DNA from: Defluviitalea saccharophila
GTDB taxonomy: Bacteria > Bacillota > Clostridia > Lachnospirales > Defluviitaleaceae
Assembly: GCF_038396635.1 (NCBI RefSeq)
Contig: NZ_CP121687.1
Coordinates: 372,001-436,000, forward strand
Direction: 5' to 3'
DNA length: 64,000 nt
Shown: one piece after another, positions 34,689-48,202 of the stretch
Position numbering within the stretch: position 1 is the stretch's first letter
Layout: each line of letters opens with the position of its first letter
Notes under the pieces: model-generated
The model's database searches: none
What the model was told of the DNA's origin: nothing
What the model saw: the letters and a program-made list of their open reading frames with translations, nothing else
Translations under genes and position numbers: made by a program

Positions 34689-35663
34689 TTAAAGAGAATC
34701 TTTGTTAATTACTGATACACCTGTATCAAAATAATCTTCACCGGTATTTTCGCCAGCCAAATCTTTAACAGCTGTCTTCATACCTTCATAACCCATAACA
34801 TCTGGATTTTGGGCCATTGTACATACTAAATAACCATCTTTAATGAGGTTAAGTATTGTATCGGATTTATCAAATCCAACACCTAAAACTGTGCCACCAG
34901 CTTCTTGGATTGCATTTCCGATTCCTACTGTAGAACCTTCATTGGTTCCAAAGATACCCACACAACCTTGAGTAATATAGTTTGCAGCGATATCTTTGGA
35001 TTTTGCAGCATCCCCATCACCGTATTGGGTTTCAAGGATTTCAAATTTAGTACCTTCAAATGCAGCACGGAATCCTTCTTCTCTCGCTACGGTTGAAGCT
35101 GTGGCAGCATTAACACTAACAACACCAATTTTACCTTCTGTGATTCCAGCAGCTGCAAGAGCAGCAATCATTTCTTTTCCTGCTGTATTTCCGGCAGCTT
35201 TATTATCCGTTGCCAATGTTTTAACTGCGGGAAAAGCAGCAGCAGAGTCAACATATACAATTTTAACGCCTGCAGCCTCAGCTTCTTCTAGAGCAGCAGT
35301 TACGGCATCGGGACCATTAGCAGCTAAGAGTATAGCATCTGCTCCACCAGCAACCGCATTATTGATACATTCGATTTGCTTTGCGTCATCTTTTACATCC
35401 GGAGCTAACCAGGTATATTTGATATTTCCTAGCTCTTCTACAGCTTTTTTACAGCCGGCATCTACATTTACCCAATGTTGATCCATTTGGTCCATAGTGA
35501 TTAAATAAATATTGTAATTCTCACCTGACTTTGATGATTCTGTGGACTCTGTTGAAGAAGCAGGATCTTGTGCCGGTGTTGTAGTCGTCTGGCTTCCACA
35601 GCCGGCCATGAGACTTACAACCATAACTAGACACAACAATAATGCACTTAACTTACTTTTCAC
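34689..35663 (-). CDS. sugar ABC transporter substrate-binding lipoprotein (RbsB-like)
   Basis: 324 residues. Lipobox LMAGC (Cys about 22), a Thr/Ser/Glu-rich linker to about residue 47, then a type I periplasmic-binding fold (NIYLITMDQMDQHW). Closest in type to ribose, galactose or autoinducer-2 binding proteins; the ligand is not readable. Start is GTG with GGGGGG eight bases upstream. Last gene of the three-gene transporter operon, with a terminator right after it. Confidence 0.87.
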   Translation of the reverse strand: MKSKLSALLLCLVMVVSLMAGCGSQTTTTPAQDPASSTESTESSKSGENYNIYLITMDQMDQHWVNVDAGCKKAVEELGNIKYTWLAPDVKDDAKQIECINNAVAGGADAILLAANGPDAVTAALEEAEAAGVKIVYVDSAAAFPAVKTLATDNKAAGNTAGKEMIAALAAAGITEGKIGVVSVNAATASTVAREEGFRAAFEGTKFEILETQYGDGDAAKSKDIAANYITQGCVGIFGTNEGSTVGIGNAIQEAGGTVLGVGFDKSDTILNLIKDGYLVCTMAQNPDVMGYEGMKTAVKDLAGENTGEDYFDTGVSVINKDSL

Positions 35664-35706: not shown

Positions 35707-36741
35707 TTATGCTTTAACTCCATTTTCAGAAACAACCGCTTCTTTTTTCTTTCTTGGTTTGCCACCAGTTCTAACGATAATATCCAGTAGAACTGAAATA
35801 ACAACGATAATACCTATTACAATATTACGAATAGCAACAGGTGCTCCTGCAAATTGAAGACCGTTTTGCAGTACTCCCCAAATGGATGCTCCTATTACTG
35901 TCCCCAGTAGAATACCCTGTCCTCCTAAGGTACTCACGCCTCCAATTACAGAAGCAGCAACTGCATACATTTCATAAACATTACCTGCGTCCATAGTACC
36001 CATACCGCTGGTCGCACAAATGATCAGACCGACTACGCATGAACAAAATGTGCTGACAATATATGCTTTGATTGTAGTAGACACTATATTTACACCAGAT
36101 AGCCTGGATGCTTCAAGATTGCTTCCGATTGCATAAATATGGCGGCCAGTACGGGTTTTGCTTAATATAAAGTTAAATATCAGCCAAAGGATAATGGTAA
36201 TCCATATGGTGTTATAAATACCAAAGGTTCTGCCATAATAGAAAAAGTCTCTGAAACCTTTTGCCCCTGCTCCAATTGAGTCTGTATTGTAGTTGTTATT
36301 TACAATTTGTGCAATACCTCTGGCAACCGTCATTGTACCCAGAGTAGCGATAAAAGGCGGCAGCTTACAATACGCAACCAGTTCACCGTTCATAATACCA
36401 ACGGCAATGCAGCAAATCAATGTAATCAATACAGCGACCCATGGGTTTACACCTTTAGTCATCAGTGTTGCAGAGATCATACAGCTCATACCAACCACAG
36501 AACCTATGGACAGATCAATATTTCCGGTAATTAGAACATAAGACTGACCGATACCAATTAACAAAATCGGTGCGATTTGACGCAGCAGATTGCCTATATT
36601 TCTGCCTGAGAAAAAGGTAGGATTTAAAATACCAAATATGATGCAAAGAATAACAAGACCAAAGGCGACTGTAATCACTTGCCCCATACCTCTAATTGCT
36701 AAAATTCTTTTTAATGTGCTTTGTTTTTCTATCTTTTTCAT
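35707..36741 (-). CDS. sugar ABC transporter permease (RbsC-like)
   Basis: 344 residues with eight to ten hydrophobic segments, the GNIDLSIGSVVGMSCM motif of the RbsC family and IYAIGSNLEASRLSGVN, the coupling loop. The start at ATG 36741 has GGGGAG six bases upstream; the frame to 36819 overlaps the ATPase gene without a Shine-Dalgarno. It stands between its ATPase and binding protein. A basic C-terminal tail (KPRKKKE) is cytoplasmic. Confidence 0.9.
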   Translation of the reverse strand: MKKIEKQSTLKRILAIRGMGQVITVAFGLVILCIIFGILNPTFFSGRNIGNLLRQIAPILLIGIGQSYVLITGNIDLSIGSVVGMSCMISATLMTKGVNPWVAVLITLICCIAVGIMNGELVAYCKLPPFIATLGTMTVARGIAQIVNNNYNTDSIGAGAKGFRDFFYYGRTFGIYNTIWITIILWLIFNFILSKTRTGRHIYAIGSNLEASRLSGVNIVSTTIKAYIVSTFCSCVVGLIICATSGMGTMDAGNVYEMYAVAASVIGGVSTLGGQGILLGTVIGASIWGVLQNGLQFAGAPVAIRNIVIGIIVVISVLLDIIVRTGGKPRKKKEAVVSENGVKA

Positions 36742-36760
36742 CTCTAACTCCCCTATTTTT

Positions 36761-38290
36761 TTATACTGCTTCATGAGCCATATTATCTTTCTCGATTTTA
36801 TTCTCAAATTTAGTTGCATATTCTAGAATAAGATTTTGTGTAGCATCCTTAATATCCAATTCCCCGGTAATTTTCCCGTCGCACATTACGAGGATTCGAT
36901 CACTGATGCCCAGTATTTCAGGCATTTCAGAGGAAACAAAAAGTACACCAATTCCTTTTTGTTTTAAATCGTTCATTAAATTATAAATTTCAACCTTTGC
37001 AGCAACATCAATACCTCTGGTCGGTTCATCAAACATGACTATTCGAGAATTTCTTGCCAGCCATTTGCTCACAACCACTTTTTGTTGATTGCCTCCTGAA
37101 AGGCTATCTGCATTTACCTCCGAGTGAGGTAATTTGATTCTTAAATCTTCAATAGATTTATTAACCATTGCTTTTTCTTTCTTTTTATTTACAATGCCAT
37201 CTAATTTGCATAGAATATCTAAATTAGGTAATGCTATATTCTCTCGAATACTTAATTTAGTGCACAAACCGTCTTTTTTTCTATCTTCAGGAACCAATAC
37301 GATTCCTGCCTTAATCGCATCCATAGGTTTATTAATCTGAACAGGTTTACCATCTAAAATAATTTCTCCAGAGTCTTTAGGATCAACACCAAAAATCGCT
37401 CTGGTAGTTTCCGTGCGCCCGGCACCCATAAGTCCTGCAATACCGACTATTTCTCCTTCATATATGTCAAAGCTTATATCTCTTACAAGTTTCCCTGCAT
37501 TCAGGTTTTTAACTTCTAAGATTTTCTTCCCTTTTTTGCAGGTTACTCTTGGGAACTTTTCTTTGATTTCACGGCCTACCATATTTGCAATGATTTCTTG
37601 CATGGATGTTTCGGAAAAATTCATTGTGGTAATATATTTTCCGTCTCGCATAATCATTACTCGATCAACAATATGCTGTAATTCTTCCAGACGATGAGAT
37701 ATGTATACAATTCCACAGCCCTCATTCTTCAACTTTTTAATGATTTTAAAGAGTTCACTGATTTCCTTTGCGGTTAATGCTGAAGTAGGCTCATCCATAA
37801 TCAGAATCTTAGCATTCGTAGAAAGGGCTTTTGCAATTTCCACCATTTGCTGCTTAGACACTGGAAGATCGCCAACAATTGTTTCCGGTGGAATATCGAT
37901 ATTTAACCGATCAAGAATTGCTTTTGCTTGTCGGTTCATTTCTTTATTAGACAAAATTCCGGAATGGGTTATTTCTCGTCCTAAAAAAATGTTCTCTGCC
38001 ACAGAAAGGTGGGAACACATATTTAACTCTTGATGAATGATCGCAACCCCCAATGCTTGGGCTTTTTTTGGTGTTAAATCTTCTACATATTCCCCAAAAA
38101 TTTTAATCTCTCCACTGTCTTTGCTATGAACACCGCTTAAAATTTTTACCAGAGTGGATTTCCCGGCACCGTTTTCTCCAAGCAGTGCCAGTACTTCTCC
38201 AGATTTCAAATTGAAAGATACATTATCTAAAGCCTTTACTCCCGGAAAGCTCTTATTGATATTTTTAAGTTCAACAATATATTCTTCCAT
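36761..38290 (-). CDS. sugar ABC transporter ATPase, double-domain (RbsA-like)
   Basis: 509 residues with two ABC domains. The first has Walker A GENGAGKST (about 37-45), Walker B ILIMDEPTSALT and ISHRLEE; the second has degenerate P-loop GLMGAGRTE, signature LSGGNQQK and Walker B MFDEPTRGID. This asymmetry is normal for RbsA. ATG 38290 follows AGGTGA; the frame to 38338 extends into the promoter. It contrasts with the neighbouring ABC protein, where both sites are lost. Confidence 0.92.
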   Translation of the reverse strand: MEEYIVELKNINKSFPGVKALDNVSFNLKSGEVLALLGENGAGKSTLVKILSGVHSKDSGEIKIFGEYVEDLTPKKAQALGVAIIHQELNMCSHLSVAENIFLGREITHSGILSNKEMNRQAKAILDRLNIDIPPETIVGDLPVSKQQMVEIAKALSTNAKILIMDEPTSALTAKEISELFKIIKKLKNEGCGIVYISHRLEELQHIVDRVMIMRDGKYITTMNFSETSMQEIIANMVGREIKEKFPRVTCKKGKKILEVKNLNAGKLVRDISFDIYEGEIVGIAGLMGAGRTETTRAIFGVDPKDSGEIILDGKPVQINKPMDAIKAGIVLVPEDRKKDGLCTKLSIRENIALPNLDILCKLDGIVNKKKEKAMVNKSIEDLRIKLPHSEVNADSLSGGNQQKVVVSKWLARNSRIVMFDEPTRGIDVAAKVEIYNLMNDLKQKGIGVLFVSSEMPEILGISDRILVMCDGKITGELDIKDATQNLILEYATKFENKIEKDNMAHEAV

Positions 38291-38328: not shown

Positions 38329-38357
38329 AATATAGCATTTCTATTGTATATCAGTAA
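38329..38357 (-). promoter_or_regulatory. putative promoter of the sugar transporter operon
   Basis: Minus strand: -35 TTACTG (38352-38357), 17-base spacer, -10 TATATT (38329-38334), 39 bases before the ATPase start. A weak promoter, as expected for one that needs the AraC-type activator encoded just upstream. Confidence 0.45.
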
Positions 38358-38407
38358 GGTGACATACTTTGGAATTACTAGCCTTTCTTTTGAACTTATA
38401 CATATTT

Positions 38408-39853
38408 TTATTGATTTTCACGGAAAGATTGGAATTCTCGACTGTGATACTCTTTGGAAAGTTTTCCATGCTCTATGATCATTAAACGATCTGCTACAGC
38501 GAGAGAATCAGAAAGGTTCACTGCCAGAATGATTACGGTAATCTTTTTCTTACGCAGCTGGTTAATGAGGTAAACAATATGACGCCTAAGGTACATATCT
38601 GCGCCTGAGAAAGGCTGAATGCAGAAAACAACCTTAGGATGATAGAGATGAATTCTATAATAAACTAAATTATACAATGACTGAGCATCTAATTCAGTGA
38701 TATCGTTACAGTAAATATCTTTACCAAGAAGTGGTTCATATTCTTGTATAACACTTTTTTTAATTTTCTTGCTGAGCCATAAATTAGGATATTTTTTATC
38801 TAATAAAAAACACAAATTATCAATATAGCTCATTTCTTTAAAAAGCATACTATGAATGGGGTTTTCTTGAATAAAACAGATATTTTTTCTAAGGGAGAGT
38901 ACATCGTTATAGTTTGAGTCGTCAAATAATATCTTTCCCGAATTTGGGCTTATTTCATGGTTCATTAATTTAATAATGTCTTCTAAAACGGTATTATTCA
39001 TATCTAAGAAAACAAGACATTCTCCTTCTGTAGCAGAAAAATTCATATTATGAATATTGTCTGTAGAAACATTTTGAAAGCTTAATATTCCTTCTTTGCT
39101 AATATTACCGGCTGTAGTAGAATCAATACGATTAAAATCAAGGGTATAAGGGGCTATGACTTCTTGTTTAAACTCTTTTTTGCTTAGAACTTTCAGTACT
39201 TTTTCATTTTTCATGATAGAAATCCGGTCACAAATCTTAAAAGCTTCTTCATGATGATTACAAATGTATAAAAAAGATATACCCTGTGTTGAATAGTATC
39301 GTATTATATCGTGTATTTTGATTAAATCGGTGGTGCTGATAAAATTGCTAATGTCTTTTATAACAATCAATTTTACACCGCCAACAATGGCTTTTAGCAT
39401 CTCTACGACACATTTTTCAAAAAAAGATAGATTGGATACTAACTGATTGCCATCAATATGAATACCGAGTTCCTTAGAAAATTGTTTAAACTGATCCTCC
39501 AGTATCTTAGGATTAATTAAGTATTTTTTAAAACCATTGCGCAAAACAAAAATATTGTCTACAACTGTTAAATCTTCTACCAATCGACTCTGTTTTTCAA
39601 TAACAGCTACCCGGTTCATGGTCATAGAACTATGTTTGTAATTATTCACTAAGGTTTCTTGAAAATAAACATAGCCGTAGTGAATGGGAATGTTTTGACA
39701 AATTATACGAACTAAGGCTTCTTGTCCGTGATAATTGATACTCACAAGCCCCATGATCTCCCCTTCAAAAATATGTAAATTAAAATTATCCAGCAGGGTT
39801 GTACCGTCAACAATCTGTGTAATTCTTTCCATTCGTAAAATTTCTTCTTTCAT
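38408..39853 (-). CDS. RbsA-like double ABC protein with both ATP sites destroyed
   Basis: 481 residues aligning by eye with RbsA from end to end, yet lacking every catalytic motif. Half 1: the P-loop reads SINYHGQEA (38-46; Gln44 for Lys), the signature region LSFFEKCVVE, Walker B VIKDIS (Lys-Asp for Asp-Glu) and Asn199 for the switch His. Half 2: P-loop FLDMNNTVL, no LSGGNQQ, and FCIQPFSGAD for Walker B. The frame is open and the start overlaps the kinase stop (TAATG), so it is a kept gene, not a decaying pseudogene. A regulatory, non-hydrolysing role with the adjacent kinase or transporter is inferred. Confidence 0.85.
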   Translation of the reverse strand: MKEEILRMERITQIVDGTTLLDNFNLHIFEGEIMGLVSINYHGQEALVRIICQNIPIHYGYVYFQETLVNNYKHSSMTMNRVAVIEKQSRLVEDLTVVDNIFVLRNGFKKYLINPKILEDQFKQFSKELGIHIDGNQLVSNLSFFEKCVVEMLKAIVGGVKLIVIKDISNFISTTDLIKIHDIIRYYSTQGISFLYICNHHEEAFKICDRISIMKNEKVLKVLSKKEFKQEVIAPYTLDFNRIDSTTAGNISKEGILSFQNVSTDNIHNMNFSATEGECLVFLDMNNTVLEDIIKLMNHEISPNSGKILFDDSNYNDVLSLRKNICFIQENPIHSMLFKEMSYIDNLCFLLDKKYPNLWLSKKIKKSVIQEYEPLLGKDIYCNDITELDAQSLYNLVYYRIHLYHPKVVFCIQPFSGADMYLRRHIVYLINQLRKKKITVIILAVNLSDSLAVADRLMIIEHGKLSKEYHSREFQSFRENQ

Positions 39854-40884
39854 TAGCCAATTTCACTTCCATCCTTAGTTATGAGTGGTAATGTAATTTC
39901 AACATCTGTGCCAACATTTAATGTACTGTAGATATTGATGCCATATTCCTCTCCAAAAAGGAGCTTAATTCTATTATTCACATTAATAATAGCTATGCCG
40001 CCTTTTTCTTCGCTATCCGGTTTTATATAGTCGAAGGAATGGGTATTGAGCTTTTCATTTAATTCTTTTAAACGTTCCTCTTCCATCCCTAAGCCGTCAT
40101 CGGATACGGTAATGATTAAGCGCTTGGTGGTACTTTCAAGTTTTATAACGATATTGCCCTTTCCCATTTTTCTTTCTATGCCGTGAAAAATAGAGTTTTC
40201 TACAATGGGTTGTAAAACAAGCTTAGGCAAACGATATTTTAGAATATCTGTTTTGTCTTCGGCATCGTATTCGATTTTTAGGTTGAGACGTTCCCCAAAA
40301 CGATACTGCTGAATAATATAGTAGTTTTCAATATTTCTTAATTCATCTTCCAGGGTAACCAAATGTTCTACATTGGAAATAGTATAGCGAAAATAAGTGC
40401 TAAGTGCTTCTGTAATCTCAGCAACATTATCAAGTCCTGCCATCAAGGCTTCGCCTCTGATGCCTTCAAGGCTATTGTATAGAAAATGTGGGTTAATCTG
40501 ATTTTGTAAGGCAAGATATTGGGCTTGTTTTTTTGTCGCACTGATGAGTTCATTGGTGTGAATCATAGCTTTTAACTTCGTTACTGCTTCATCCATTTCG
40601 GGACTGAAAGGGAAATTTAGTTCAAAAATGTCTTGAATAGTATATCCTTTTGCAAAGAGCTGCAATACTTTGGAGGTTTCTTTATAGGGAATATAAATCC
40701 ATTTATAACCAATGTAAAAAAGGACAAATAATATGGAGTATCCAAATAATACAGCAAAAATAAGTTTGCTATTAGAAATAGAGAGTACTGTTAAAATAAA
40801 TAATAAATAAAATATACAGAGCATCACTGCCAAAAAGAAATAAAAAATTCGATAGGATAAATATCGGTTGTTTTTGATTTTCAT
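39853..40884 (-). CDS. sensor histidine kinase with minimal extracellular loop (YesM/LytS type)
   Basis: 343 residues. Two transmembrane helices (about 13-34 and 41-62) are joined by only about six residues (35-40), so no extracellular sensor exists. A short cytoplasmic linker leads to the kinase: phosphoacceptor His133 in QINPHFLYN, N-box QPIVENSIFHG, G-box SDDGLGM and a GIAIINVNNRI second G-box. It presumably senses through a partner protein. GGCGGG before ATG; 12 bases after the response regulator. Confidence 0.9.
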   Translation of the reverse strand: MKIKNNRYLSYRIFYFFLAVMLCIFYLLFILTVLSISNSKLIFAVLFGYSILFVLFYIGYKWIYIPYKETSKVLQLFAKGYTIQDIFELNFPFSPEMDEAVTKLKAMIHTNELISATKKQAQYLALQNQINPHFLYNSLEGIRGEALMAGLDNVAEITEALSTYFRYTISNVEHLVTLEDELRNIENYYIIQQYRFGERLNLKIEYDAEDKTDILKYRLPKLVLQPIVENSIFHGIERKMGKGNIVIKLESTTKRLIITVSDDGLGMEEERLKELNEKLNTHSFDYIKPDSEEKGGIAIINVNNRIKLLFGEEYGINIYSTLNVGTDVEITLPLITKDGSEIG

Positions 40885-40896
40885 ATCTTTTCCCGC

Positions 40897-42513
40897 CTAT
40901 GAATACAGTTTTCTAAATTCATTTGGTTTAAGACCAGAGTACTTTTTAAATAACTTTATGAAGTGTTTTAAATCGTTATAGCCCACTGCTTCACAAATAC
41001 AGGCAACGCTTAAATTGGTTTCTTTTAGTAGTTCCTTTGCCTTATTCATTCTAACTTCTGATAGATATTCTAAGAAATTGATACCACATTCTTTTTTAAA
41101 TAAAGAACTAAAATAGGAATCATTAAATCCAACATAATTGCTCACTTCTTTGAGCGTAATAGGCTTCATATAGTTTTGCTGAATATACTGCTTTGCCTCT
41201 CGGATAGGCTTTATATATGCTTGTCTTCTATTTTCGATCGCAGAATTTACAGAATCGCTGATTATGCTTTTCAAATGGTCAAAAAGTTGTGATGCAGAAC
41301 TGCAAAGTTCTATATTCAAAGAAAAGGAATCTAAGAGGATATCCTGATTTTCTACATTAAACTGATGCTTTCTAAGAAGCATAAGGTAAATATTAAAAGC
41401 TTCTTTGACTACGTTTAATAATTCGTGACCTGATATATTAGGATTATTTAATACTTTATTTTGTATGTAATCAATGGATTCGAGCACTCCATAAGGGTCT
41501 AAGAATTCAAGAGCAGCCTCCATATTCTTAGTAAATTCAGAGAGAAGAACATCATTTTCAGTATTATTGCCTTGAAATGGCGCATTTTCAATAAGTTTAT
41601 TTGTTCCTTCAATGAGTCTTTGTTCCATTGCTGCTTCTGCAGTTATAACTGATTTTCTTAAATCGTTTATATTATCAACCGCTATTCCTAATCCAATTGT
41701 AAACTGGATTTTATTAAATATGCTATTTTGTACCAGCAACTCGTCTAAAGAGGCCTTGATCTGTTTTCGGATTCGTTTTTTATTATCACCATCATAATTT
41801 AATAAGCAATAAGTTCTGCTATTTTGAAAACAAATTTCCATATCATAGCATTCTTCTTTTAAAAACAACCGCATAATTTGTGATATTCTGTTTTCAAATA
41901 TTTTAATGCTGCTTTTAAATAAATCCTCATAAGAGCAATCCATTTTTATAATGAAAACTTGAAAACACCCTGATTGAAAGTTAAAGTGATAGGATTCATT
42001 GCATTTTGACATATCGAGCTCTTCTTGGTCTGTAGCTTTTTTAAATAGTATTTCGGTTAAAAACCCAGATCTCAGTTTATCAATATCATTTTGCAAACGA
42101 ATTTTAAGGCGTTCCTCCCGGGTTAACTGCTCAGTTCTCAGTCTTTGTTTCTCACATATTTTATTTAAGCTAGCCAATAACTCGTTCTTTTTTATGGGTT
42201 TTAGCAAGTAATCGCTTACCCCATATTTAATTGCACTTTGGGCATATTCAAAATGGCTATAGCCACTAATTATGATAAAGTCTATATCGTTTTTTATCTG
42301 CTTTCCGCGATTAATCAACTCTAACCCGTCATACCCCGGCATACGGATATCTGTAATCATTATGTCAGGTTGGAGGGATTGTATGAGTTCTAATGCTTCA
42401 ATACTATTATGAGCTACCCCAACGATTTCCATTTCTAATGCTTTCCAATCTATTAGAGAGCAAATCAATTGACAAACCTTCTCCTCATCATCTGCTATTA
42501 CTACTTTAATCAT
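40897..42513 (-). CDS. AraC-family response regulator (YesN type)
   Basis: 538 residues. Receiver domain 1-120 with acidic pair Asp8-Asp9, phosphoacceptor Asp55 (ITDIRMPG) and Lys (LLKPIKK). A poorly conserved middle region follows, including a degenerate GGDEF-like or YesN-type linker, then a C-terminal AraC DNA-binding domain with two helix-turn-helix units (ITLKEVSNYVGFNDSYFSSLF and, later, VACICEAVGY). Start ATG 42513 follows AAGGGG; the ATG at 42534 has a poorer site. Likely activator of the sugar ABC operon downstream. Confidence 0.92.
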   Translation of the reverse strand: MIKVVIADDEEKVCQLICSLIDWKALEMEIVGVAHNSIEALELIQSLQPDIMITDIRMPGYDGLELINRGKQIKNDIDFIIISGYSHFEYAQSAIKYGVSDYLLKPIKKNELLASLNKICEKQRLRTEQLTREERLKIRLQNDIDKLRSGFLTEILFKKATDQEELDMSKCNESYHFNFQSGCFQVFIIKMDCSYEDLFKSSIKIFENRISQIMRLFLKEECYDMEICFQNSRTYCLLNYDGDNKKRIRKQIKASLDELLVQNSIFNKIQFTIGLGIAVDNINDLRKSVITAEAAMEQRLIEGTNKLIENAPFQGNNTENDVLLSEFTKNMEAALEFLDPYGVLESIDYIQNKVLNNPNISGHELLNVVKEAFNIYLMLLRKHQFNVENQDILLDSFSLNIELCSSASQLFDHLKSIISDSVNSAIENRRQAYIKPIREAKQYIQQNYMKPITLKEVSNYVGFNDSYFSSLFKKECGINFLEYLSEVRMNKAKELLKETNLSVACICEAVGYNDLKHFIKLFKKYSGLKPNEFRKLYS

Positions 42514-45930: not shown

Positions 45931-47328
45931 ATGAAAATACAAGGTTTTTATCTTCTTCCCCATCCACCTATTATCATTCCAGAAGTGGGAACAGGAGAAG
46001 AAAGAAAAATTAAAAATACCGGGAATGCTTTTAGAGAAATAGCAAAGGAAGTACAGCAAAAAGCCCCTCATACTATCATTCTTATTACTCCCCACGGTAC
46101 CATGTTTAACGATGCTATTAATTTAGTGTATGAAGATACCCTGCGAGGAAGCCTAAAACAGTTTGGGGTTCCGAATGTCAAAATGGAAGTAAAAATAAAT
46201 AAATCCCTTACGAATAAAATATTTGAAATTGCTCGAGAAGAAAACATTCCCGCAGTTATGAGTACTAAAGAATTTCTTAAGGATTATAATATTTCTTTGT
46301 CTCTGGATCATGGGGCAATGGTGCCGCTTTATTTTATTAATCAGTATTATACCGATTATACTCTTGTTCATATTACTTATTCTCCTCTTTCTGTTGTGGA
46401 ATTGTATCAATTTGGAATGGAAATAAAAAGAGCCGTTGAAGAATCTAATGAAAAAACGATCATTATTGCCAGTGGAGATTTGTCCCACAGGCTAAAAGAT
46501 GAAGGGCCCTATGACTACAGCCCCTTTGGAGAAAAATTTGATAATGAATTTTTACATCATCTCCAGGAAGGAGATGTAATGAATGTGTTTAAAATGGATA
46601 AAAAGACTGTACAAAATGCAGGAGAATGCGGCAGAAGATCTGTTCTTATCATGTTGGGTGCATTGGATAGGTCTGCCTTTAAAGGCCATTTATTAAGCTA
46701 TGAAAAAACTTTTGGTGTAGGATATGGTATTATGAGGTTTGAAATTACAGGTGATGAGGATTCAAGATTAGAAACTATTAAGAATTTGAGCTATGAAAAA
46801 AAGCAAAATCAAAAGGACCCTTATGTCAAATTAGCAAGGGACAGCCTTACCTCTTATTTAGAAACAGGAAAATTTTTAGATAAAATTCCGTCCTATGTCA
46901 CTTCAGAAATGAGGAATACTAAGAGAGGCGTTTTTGTATCCTTAAAAAAAGACGGTGAACTCAGAGGTTGTATAGGAACTATTTTTCCCGCCACTTCTTC
47001 CATAGCCCATGAAATCATTAGAAATGCCGTAGAAGCTGGTATCCATGACCCAAGATTTTACCCAGTTGAGGCCCATGAATTATTAGATATAGATTTTTCA
47101 GTAGATGTATTAACAGAACCGGAAAAAGCAGACAAGAGTACTCTTGATCCCAAAGAATACGGTGTAATTGTAAGAAGCAAGGGCAGAACCGGTCTTCTGC
47201 TCCCAGATTTAGAAGGAATAGATACGATAGAAAAACAAATTGATATTGCCCTAAAAAAAGCAGGCATTCAGCCATCGGAGCAATATGATATTGAGAGATT
47301 TAGGGTAATACGACATAGGGAAGAATAA
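45931..47328 (+). CDS. AmmeMemoRadiSam system protein, MEMO1-like and AMMECR1 domains fused
   Basis: 465 residues. The N-terminal part (1-265) is a class III extradiol-dioxygenase-like/MEMO domain with metal-site histidines in LPHPPIIIPEVG, ITPHGTMF, LDHGAMVPL and SGDLSHR. The C-terminal part (about 290-460) is an AMMECR1 domain with the invariant LRGCIGT. The two proteins are separate in many genomes and fused here. With the radical SAM enzyme 16 bases downstream they form the AmmeMemoRadiSam set, whose product is unknown. GAGGAG precedes the ATG. Confidence 0.93.
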   Translation: MKIQGFYLLPHPPIIIPEVGTGEERKIKNTGNAFREIAKEVQQKAPHTIILITPHGTMFNDAINLVYEDTLRGSLKQFGVPNVKMEVKINKSLTNKIFEIAREENIPAVMSTKEFLKDYNISLSLDHGAMVPLYFINQYYTDYTLVHITYSPLSVVELYQFGMEIKRAVEESNEKTIIIASGDLSHRLKDEGPYDYSPFGEKFDNEFLHHLQEGDVMNVFKMDKKTVQNAGECGRRSVLIMLGALDRSAFKGHLLSYEKTFGVGYGIMRFEITGDEDSRLETIKNLSYEKKQNQKDPYVKLARDSLTSYLETGKFLDKIPSYVTSEMRNTKRGVFVSLKKDGELRGCIGTIFPATSSIAHEIIRNAVEAGIHDPRFYPVEAHELLDIDFSVDVLTEPEKADKSTLDPKEYGVIVRSKGRTGLLLPDLEGIDTIEKQIDIALKKAGIQPSEQYDIERFRVIRHREE

Positions 47329-47344
47329 AACAGGAGGGCTTCAT

Positions 47345-48202
47345 TTGAAAATAGAAGGAAAATTTTATGAGAAGTATAAAGATAAAATTCACTGCTATTT
47401 ATGCCCCCATCATTGCATCATTGAAGATGGCAGTTACGGAAAATGTAAGGCAAGAATTCATGAAGGCGGTGTGCTCTATTCAATCAATTATGGAGAAGTA
47501 ACTTCCATTGCTTTAGATCCTATTGAAAAGAAGCCTCTGCACTACTATAAACCGGGCTCATATATTTTATCTATTGGAAGCTTTGGATGTAATTTTACCT
47601 GCTCTTTTTGCCAGAACTATCAAATTTCTCAGTATAAGCACCAAAGCACCTACGTTTCTAAAGAAAATATGGTAGAAACGATTTTAGGTACAAAGAATAA
47701 TATCGGAATTGCGTTTACGTACAATGAACCATCCATTTGGTACGAATATGTCTACGATATGGCAAAACATCTAAAAGAAACTCATCCAGCATCTTCTGTT
47801 GTCCTTGTAACCAATGGGTTTATCAATGAAGAACCCTTACGAGAGCTCCTGCCTTATATAGATGCCATGAATATTGATCTTAAAAGCTTTAATAATGATT
47901 ATTATAAAGAACTTTGCGGAGGAAGAATTCAGCCTGTACTGAAAAGTATTGAATTAGCAGCAACTTCATGCCATGTAGAAATAACCACACTTTTAGTAAG
48001 TGGAGAAAATGACAATATGGAAGAAATTAAAAAAATATCGGAATTTATAAGCTCTATAAATTCCGATATTCCTCTTCATATTACGCGTTATTTTCCAAAT
48101 TATAGGCTCAACAATCCCCCTACGGACAAAAGAATCATGTACGAGGCAGAAAAGATAGCCAAAAAATATCTGTCCCATGTTAAATTAGGTAATATATATT
48201 AA
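47345..48202 (+). CDS. amrS: AmmeMemoRadiSam system radical SAM enzyme
   Basis: 285 residues. The radical SAM cluster motif CNFTCSFC (about residues 80-87) binds the 4Fe-4S cluster; an N-terminal cysteine pair CYLCPHHC-like and CKAR stretch may hold another metal. Homologues resemble pyruvate-formate-lyase activating enzymes but pair with MEMO and AMMECR1 domains. TTG start with GGAGGG six bases upstream. It overlaps the convergent DUF92 gene by 18 bases. Confidence 0.9.
   Translation: MKIEGKFYEKYKDKIHCYLCPHHCIIEDGSYGKCKARIHEGGVLYSINYGEVTSIALDPIEKKPLHYYKPGSYILSIGSFGCNFTCSFCQNYQISQYKHQSTYVSKENMVETILGTKNNIGIAFTYNEPSIWYEYVYDMAKHLKETHPASSVVLVTNGFINEEPLRELLPYIDAMNIDLKSFNNDYYKELCGGRIQPVLKSIELAATSCHVEITTLLVSGENDNMEEIKKISEFISSINSDIPLHITRYFPNYRLNNPPTDKRIMYEAEKIAKKYLSHVKLGNIY

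Follow-up and report, generated by a model that had tools for sequence, protein, structure and literature searches.

XylFII-LytS-YesN (Li et al.) is reportedly a three-component system with a spare solute-binding protein. CuaD-CuaS-CuaR is described in PMC10384115 as a LytS/YesM-type kinase and a YesN-type regulator beside a sugar ATP-binding cassette (ABC) importer, with an extra transporter part. According to the accounts in PMC6978683 and PMC7828314, the BceRS kinase lacks an outer sensor and reads the ABC transporter of its own operon, BceAB. In MalK-MalT and PstB-PhoU-PhoR, as outlined in PMC10427625 and PMC6978683, a regulator or a kinase is informed of the transport state of an importer by its ATPase side. 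A locus for comparison with these systems was analysed in a window of 64,000 nucleotides from Defluviitalea saccharophila (NZ_CP121687.1, positions 372,001-436,000; coordinates below are those of the window), where a two-component pair and a degenerate double ABC protein stand before the genes of a CUT2 sugar importer. On balance, this dead ABC protein is taken to be a dedicated third component, a pseudo-ATPase, in a two-component system for sugar uptake; in the proposed mechanism it would sense the permease.

Loss of the ATP sites in a double ABC protein

All genes of the operon lie on the minus strand, in the order response regulator, kinase, dead ABC protein, live RbsA, permease and binding protein. 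Regulator and kinase are separated by 12 bases, and the kinase gene overlaps the dead ABC gene (38408..39853, -; 481 residues) in the sequence TAATG. NCBIfam RbsA aligned to residues 3-473 of the dead ABC protein with 131.8 bits against a cut-off of 745, and Pfam returned one ABC_tran match of 43.4 bits. A tandem ABC fold of ∼500 residues was retained in the AlphaFold model (pLDDT 80.6), the closest folds being tandem ABC proteins such as OppD/DppD with a template-modelling score of about 0.7. In the N-terminal half SINYHGQEA replaces GENGAGKST, IKDI replaces MDEP and CNH replaces SHR; in the C-terminal half DMNNTVLED stands at Walker A and LDAQSLY at the signature. None of the N-half P-loop, the Walker B Asp-Glu, the switch His and the C-half LSGG is kept. 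A preliminary description of this DNA had listed P-loops, signatures, Walker B acids and switch His as replaced, had given the coordinates, gap and overlap, and had placed live RbsA, permease and binding protein next in line. Every one of these losses was read again in the protein and the layout agreed throughout.

Motifs were tabulated for 61 distinct proteins to which the dead profile gave a higher score than the live one, aligned with 53 live RbsA proteins from the same loci; this selection excludes live-looking extra copies (L112, L113, L117) by construction. The P-loop was kept in 2 of the 61 dead proteins (L122, L149) and in all 53 live ones. The corresponding counts were 1/61 and 53/53 for the Walker B Asp-Glu, 4/61 and 52/53 for the switch His, 0/61 and 52/53 for the C-half SGG signature, and 13/61 and 53/53 for the Q-loop Gln. 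The full motif set was found in no dead ABC protein among the 61. The Walker Lys alone persists in 27/61 relatives, and Gln44 is a peculiarity of the window gene.

The ratio of non-synonymous to synonymous substitution rates (dN/dS) of the dead ABC gene was 0.07, 0.12, 0.07, 0.07 and 0.22 in five close pairs, values equal to, or up to about twice, those of the kinase and the live ATPase. A sixth usable pair, L052/L053, gave 0.34, with half of the compared frame non-coding. As judged from these alignments, the motif-loss pattern is beyond chance, because it is common to 61 distinct relatives under purifying selection. A decaying gene would be expected to lose all catalytic motifs, as here, and the dead ABC protein changes faster than live RbsA; decay was nevertheless rejected on dN/dS, which lies well below 1, and frames are open in 60-odd loci with the gene order conserved, so that this explanation is close to refuted.

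The short kinase as constant partner

The kinase (39853..40884, -; 343 residues) carries the Pfam domains His_kinase (PF06580) and HATPase_c. The regulator (40897..42513, -; 538 residues, ATG at 42513), which is a neighbour in relatives too, consists of a receiver (Response_reg, 84.7 bits) and an AraC-type helix-turn-helix domain (HTH_18, 77.5 bits; both Pfam). These are the domains of YesM/YesN (LytS-type) pairs. Two membrane helices, at residues 9-37 and 42-78, were placed by the AlphaFold model of the kinase (mean pLDDT 75), and hydropathy agrees. About 4-6 residues lie between them, much as the six or so counted previously, and there is no outer sensor domain, the large extracellular sensor of ordinary YesM kinases of 580-640 residues being absent. 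Two helices with a loop of at most 17 residues were present in 53 of 63 kinases linked to a dead ABC protein. H133, N230 and the residues of the H-box, N-box and G-box were invariant in 21 sequences; the kinase therefore looks alive, as far as conservation indicates, though it has no outer sensor. In a kinase tree, from which L147 was omitted for its different H-box, 63 of 64 dead-ABC-linked kinases fell in one group (support 93/75, not starred) with L115 outside, and on this grouping a single origin is likely.

When the dead ABC protein alone was used as query, searches were swamped by live RbsA; kinase profiles separated the group. In 57 genomes of the nearest relatives (own included) the next-best matches were ordinary RbsA proteins, and all 29 fetched non-self loci had a P-loop. 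A scan of 84,980 species, with one genome per species, gave 23 loci at 38-70% identity, and the six-gene order held in 21 of them as far as the contig reaches. Among the 23, L031 and L032 stop before the binding protein, L048 begins inside the kinase and L050 has frameshifts in two genes. Rows were dropped for L097 and L098, which repeat the records of L037 and L038, and for L050 (frameshifts in regulator and dead ABC protein, left uncorrected), and L048 and L109, which are cut by contig ends, were left out of some counts.

Kinases were then counted in samples of the class, order and phylum, with at most five candidates scored per genome. Dead ABC proteins were found in 14 of 391 class genomes (one as a fragment at a contig end) and kinases of at least 398 bits in the same 14, the next kinase scoring 288 bits. 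Eleven second-tier class kinases comprised three that adjoin a dead ABC protein (one convergent), three with a P-loop RbsA upstream and five with neither. A broader profile (A3), built from kinases with an extra ABC protein so that its best matches form a biased sample, gave 25 matches of at least 293 bits in 392 genomes of the order, two of which (window, L122) were in its training set. The frames of 23 of these kinases had 336-410 residues, and the other two 267 and 625; matches from 280 bits down were mostly ordinary kinases of 580-640 residues. A degenerate RbsA paralogue lay directly downstream of 24 of the 25 and was fused to the remaining one, and three ordinary kinases just below the score gap (L150-L152) had no dead ABC protein. 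Eight kinases passed an expectation value (E) of 1e-78 in 398 genomes of the phylum. Seven of them, all short and in seven genomes, were each followed by a dead ABC protein; the eighth, from the window's own genome, is of the ordinary type, with 619 residues, and lacks one.

No dead ABC protein was found in genome G062 of the same species (98% complete) or in the congeners G001 and G002 (78% complete), where the best match of 160 bits was equalled by paralogues in the window's genome. The search of these three genomes covered dead ABC protein, permease and kinase; the closest permease had 37% and kinase scores did not exceed 250 bits. It seems that the module is gained and lost as a whole. A profile search had been proposed in the preliminary description for recurrence of dead RbsA paralogues beside YesM/YesN pairs, and they recurred with 25/25 top order kinases and 7/7 short phylum kinases. 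Many Clostridia carry such a pair of sensor-less kinase and degenerate RbsA copy. Two contrary outcomes were looked for and not seen: relatives with intact Walker motifs, for which the 61 proteins offered no full set, and loss of the dead ABC protein from a retained kinase pair, since in G062 kinase and permease are missing together with it.

Genome G753 holds at least five modules of regulator, short kinase and degenerate ABC protein (L129, L136, L141, L142, L149). Extra RbsA paralogues that keep the P-loop lie directly upstream of regulator-kinase pairs at L112:4896-6440, L113:12187-13716 and L117:5779-7467; two of the kinases there have an outer domain (447 and 487 residues) and one does not (353 residues). 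These copies may be intermediates.

In genome G651 the kinase frame continues into an ABC-like half (L146, 625 residues). Residues 409-622 were found at E 2.7e-25 by a dead ABC profile built without L146, an earlier score having been discarded as the fusion protein was in that profile. The same fusion occurs in a second species, G775 (L173, E 1.1e-20), and in G770 (L174), a third species of the genus, kinase and dead ABC protein are separate genes. Both fusions retain the N-half only, and dN/dS of the fused ABC part was 0.14. Where neighbouring genes have fused in nature, contact between their products is the classical conclusion, and because the fusion is present in two species, direct contact between dead ABC protein and kinase is argued here on genomic grounds. 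The permease and the kinase had both been put forward as docking partners; the fusions argue for the kinase, and docking on the permease is conjecture. The fusions also bear on whether the dead ABC protein might still serve transport as an ATPase subunit, perhaps as partner or brake within an importer of mixed composition, with no part in signalling. It is an end-to-end RbsA relative, and the P-loop of L122 and L149 would fit such a role. However, no member has the full motif set, the fusion partner is a kinase and not a permease, and the dead ABC protein stays beside the kinase where transporters lie elsewhere or belong to another clade, which makes this explanation very improbable.

In genome G470, one of the 14 of the class sample, an intact dead ABC gene (L099:9115-10566) lies outside its kinase operon, between unrelated genes and 18 kb inside the contig. 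The regulators of the fusion genus have short frames of 254-309 residues (L146:9752-10513, L173:7128-8003, L174:7190-8116), with receiver and AraC helix-turn-helix domain present and the middle part missing.

Importer genes, tandem repeat and sugar

The live RbsA-type ATPase (36761..38290, -; 509 residues) has intact motifs and matched NCBIfam at 585-597 bits. In many loci, among them most relatives of the main clade, the gap before this gene contains two direct repeats of C.AAA.....CCCC with a 22-bp period, followed by a -10 box like TGCTATACT. The window copy of the repeat, a proposed regulator site, lies at 38355..38392 (-) and has 5 mismatches to the pattern, equalled by 0 of 100 shuffles. 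A putative -10 box, TGCTATATT, was read from the sequence at 38329..38337 (-), the aligned position in relatives. A position weight matrix (PWM) built from 22 sites gave 44 matches of at least 20 bits in 1.34 Mb on both strands (the 22 training sites included and one physical site counted twice), against 2 in 6.2 Mb of mononucleotide shuffles. Directly before live RbsA stood 37 of the 44, including loci outside the training set. These 37 also include sites in L130 and L131, where the transporter is upstream of the regulator, in the relocated case L121 and in the fusion loci L146 and L173. An IUPAC mismatch pattern was tried as a repeat detector and rejected as not specific, with 8 matches in 20 genomes and 7 for the reversed control. 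The YesN-type regulator would bind the tandem repeat. It had been suggested that the dead ABC protein reports sugar transport to this AraC-type regulator: the conserved repeat in front of the live ATPase gene argues for a tie to the sugar operon, and that transport is the signal is carried forward as conjecture.

The remaining importer genes encode a CUT2 sugar permease (35707..36819, -; Pfam BPD_transp_2, 134 bits), the frame of which overlaps RbsA so that its true start is probably internal, and a sugar-binding lipoprotein (34689..35663, -; Pfam Peripla_BP_4, 158.9 bits). This gene is the importer's own and the sole binding-protein gene in the operon. Its relatives in the PDB are ribose-type binding proteins, which is not decisive for the substrate. 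In genome G722 the repeat occurs at L185:8547-8584 and L185:1912-1949, before an alpha-mannosidase of glycoside hydrolase family 92 (GH92) that carries carbohydrate-binding modules and before a chemoreceptor; these sites suggest a mannoside regulon with chemotaxis. In G304 it stands before a gene of unknown function that is followed by a GH38 alpha-mannosidase, and ManA was found above cut-off beside L034. Because of the GH92 and GH38 genes behind the sites and the ManA gene, mannose or a mannoside is the probable substrate in the main clade. Elsewhere in the window, at 45931-48202, two adjoining plus-strand frames resemble a MEMO/AMMECR1 fusion and a radical SAM enzyme (putative, judged by eye).

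Proposed link to the permease and comparison with known systems

In the proposed mechanism the dead ABC protein would sit on the cytoplasmic part of the sensor-less kinase. Its preserved permease-facing surface would feel the state of the CUT2 importer, whether cycling or idle, or with the seat free or taken by live RbsA. The kinase would then phosphorylate the YesN-type regulator, and the phosphorylated regulator would bind the repeat and switch on the importer, in some relatives also mannosidases and a chemoreceptor. In working ABC proteins the helix after the Q-loop faces the permease. This helix, LVEDLTVVDNIF in the window protein, was one of the two most conserved stretches of the dead family (rank 0.82), the other being the strand before the old P-loop (0.84). 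Between the live and the dead family the conservation rank fell from 0.92 to 0.57 at Walker A and from 0.89 to 0.51 at the C-half signature. Retention in the groove was 0.64 and at the nucleotide sites 0.38 (p 0.004). Across 45 complete loci, with L110 left out and with the L141 permease belonging to a neighbouring transporter set, dead ABC distances correlated with those of the kinase (0.89) and of the live ATPase (0.90). When controlled for the live ATPase, the partial correlation with the kinase was 0.58; when controlled for the kinase, those with the live ATPase and with the permease were 0.63 and 0.48.

Two other accounts share part of this evidence. The dead ABC protein may be a cytoplasmic ligand sensor that binds a sugar phosphate or other metabolite, perhaps in the former nucleotide pocket, with the transporter as target only. 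Kinase pairing and fusion fit this equally well, only the N-half is kept in the fusions, and the strand and loop beside the old P-loop are highly conserved. However, conservation at the N-half Walker A and B positions is no more than middling (ranks 0.57 and 0.51), the helix that faces the permease has stayed conserved and the module accompanies CUT2 transporters, so that a ligand sensor is possible but rather doubtful. Alternatively, all that the dead ABC protein does may be to steady the kinase dimer or lock it, while sensing is left to the membrane helices of the kinase, which might for instance touch the permease. Sensor-less two-helix kinases such as BceS are described as reading transporters through the membrane (PMC6978683, PMC7828314), which lends this some plausibility, but a scaffold alone leaves the recruitment of an RbsA and the conservation of the permease-facing helix unexplained and is regarded as unlikely.

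Several results weigh against permease sensing by a third component of a sugar-uptake system. In L052 and L053, and likewise on some contigs, regulator, kinase and dead ABC protein have no transporter nearby. Given kinase and regulator, the partial correlation of the dead ABC protein with the binding protein (0.45) is like that with the permease (0.44); the module therefore diverges together, and co-divergence is no evidence of contact. The groove retention of 0.64 does not differ significantly from the 0.55 of the rest of the protein (p 0.10). The window repeat is the best PWM match in the 64 kb but weak at 11.1 bits, where relatives reach 20-41 bits at the same place, and no match of at least 20 bits was found in L108, L129, L132, L138, L174 and more diverged loci. 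Near L101 lie a methylmalonate-semialdehyde dehydrogenase gene, which passed its cut-off, and an IolB-like gene, which did not; because L101 adjoins these other catabolic genes, the sugar may differ between clades. With these points included, a pseudo-ATPase third component that senses the permease is still the preferred account. Three parts of it are conjecture: that the dead ABC protein touches the permease, that it competes with the live ATPase, and that the signal is the state of transport. A more specific form is proposed only tentatively: a decoy ATPase family, in which the kinase-bound dead ABC protein samples the permease seat of the live ATPase and the kinase reads seat vacancy, and thus sugar flux, from inside.

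If the preferred account is true, bacteria have found an unforeseen means of sensing sugar by making a kinase subunit out of a spare pump motor. An input would have been found for a group of sensor-less YesM kinases, and a sizeable pseudo-ATPase family would gain a testable role. The natural fusion of kinase and dead ABC protein makes structural work direct. No description of a dead ATPase as the coupling part of such a system was found in the open-licence papers searched; within that literature this part is new, and transporter-coupled and three-component YesM/YesN systems are known as a kind.

Like RbsA, the family of CUT2 transport ATPases, the dead ABC protein has the length, the tandem ABC fold and a sequence relation; unlike RbsA, it has no recognisable working nucleotide sites and is paired with a kinase. 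MalK and PstB are themselves the ATPases at work in their importers, and PhoU does not belong to the ABC proteins, whereas the dead ABC protein is a separate paralogue without ATP sites. The window kinase has the two membrane helices and very short loop given for the BceS type. BceAB transports peptide antibiotics, its ATPase is live and it has a large outer loop; the window module instead combines a CUT2 sugar importer with a kinase of the YesM type and an ATPase that is dead. XylFII-LytS-YesN and CuaDSR, so far as they are described, agree with the dead ABC module in kinase and regulator type, in the sugar importer and in having a spare transporter part. In XylFII and CuaD that part is an outside solute-binding protein which docks on a large outer kinase domain, whereas the window kinase lacks such a domain and has a dead ATPase, inside the cell, as the spare part. 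If the preferred account holds, the module would be an inside counterpart to known sensors made from duplicated binding proteins.

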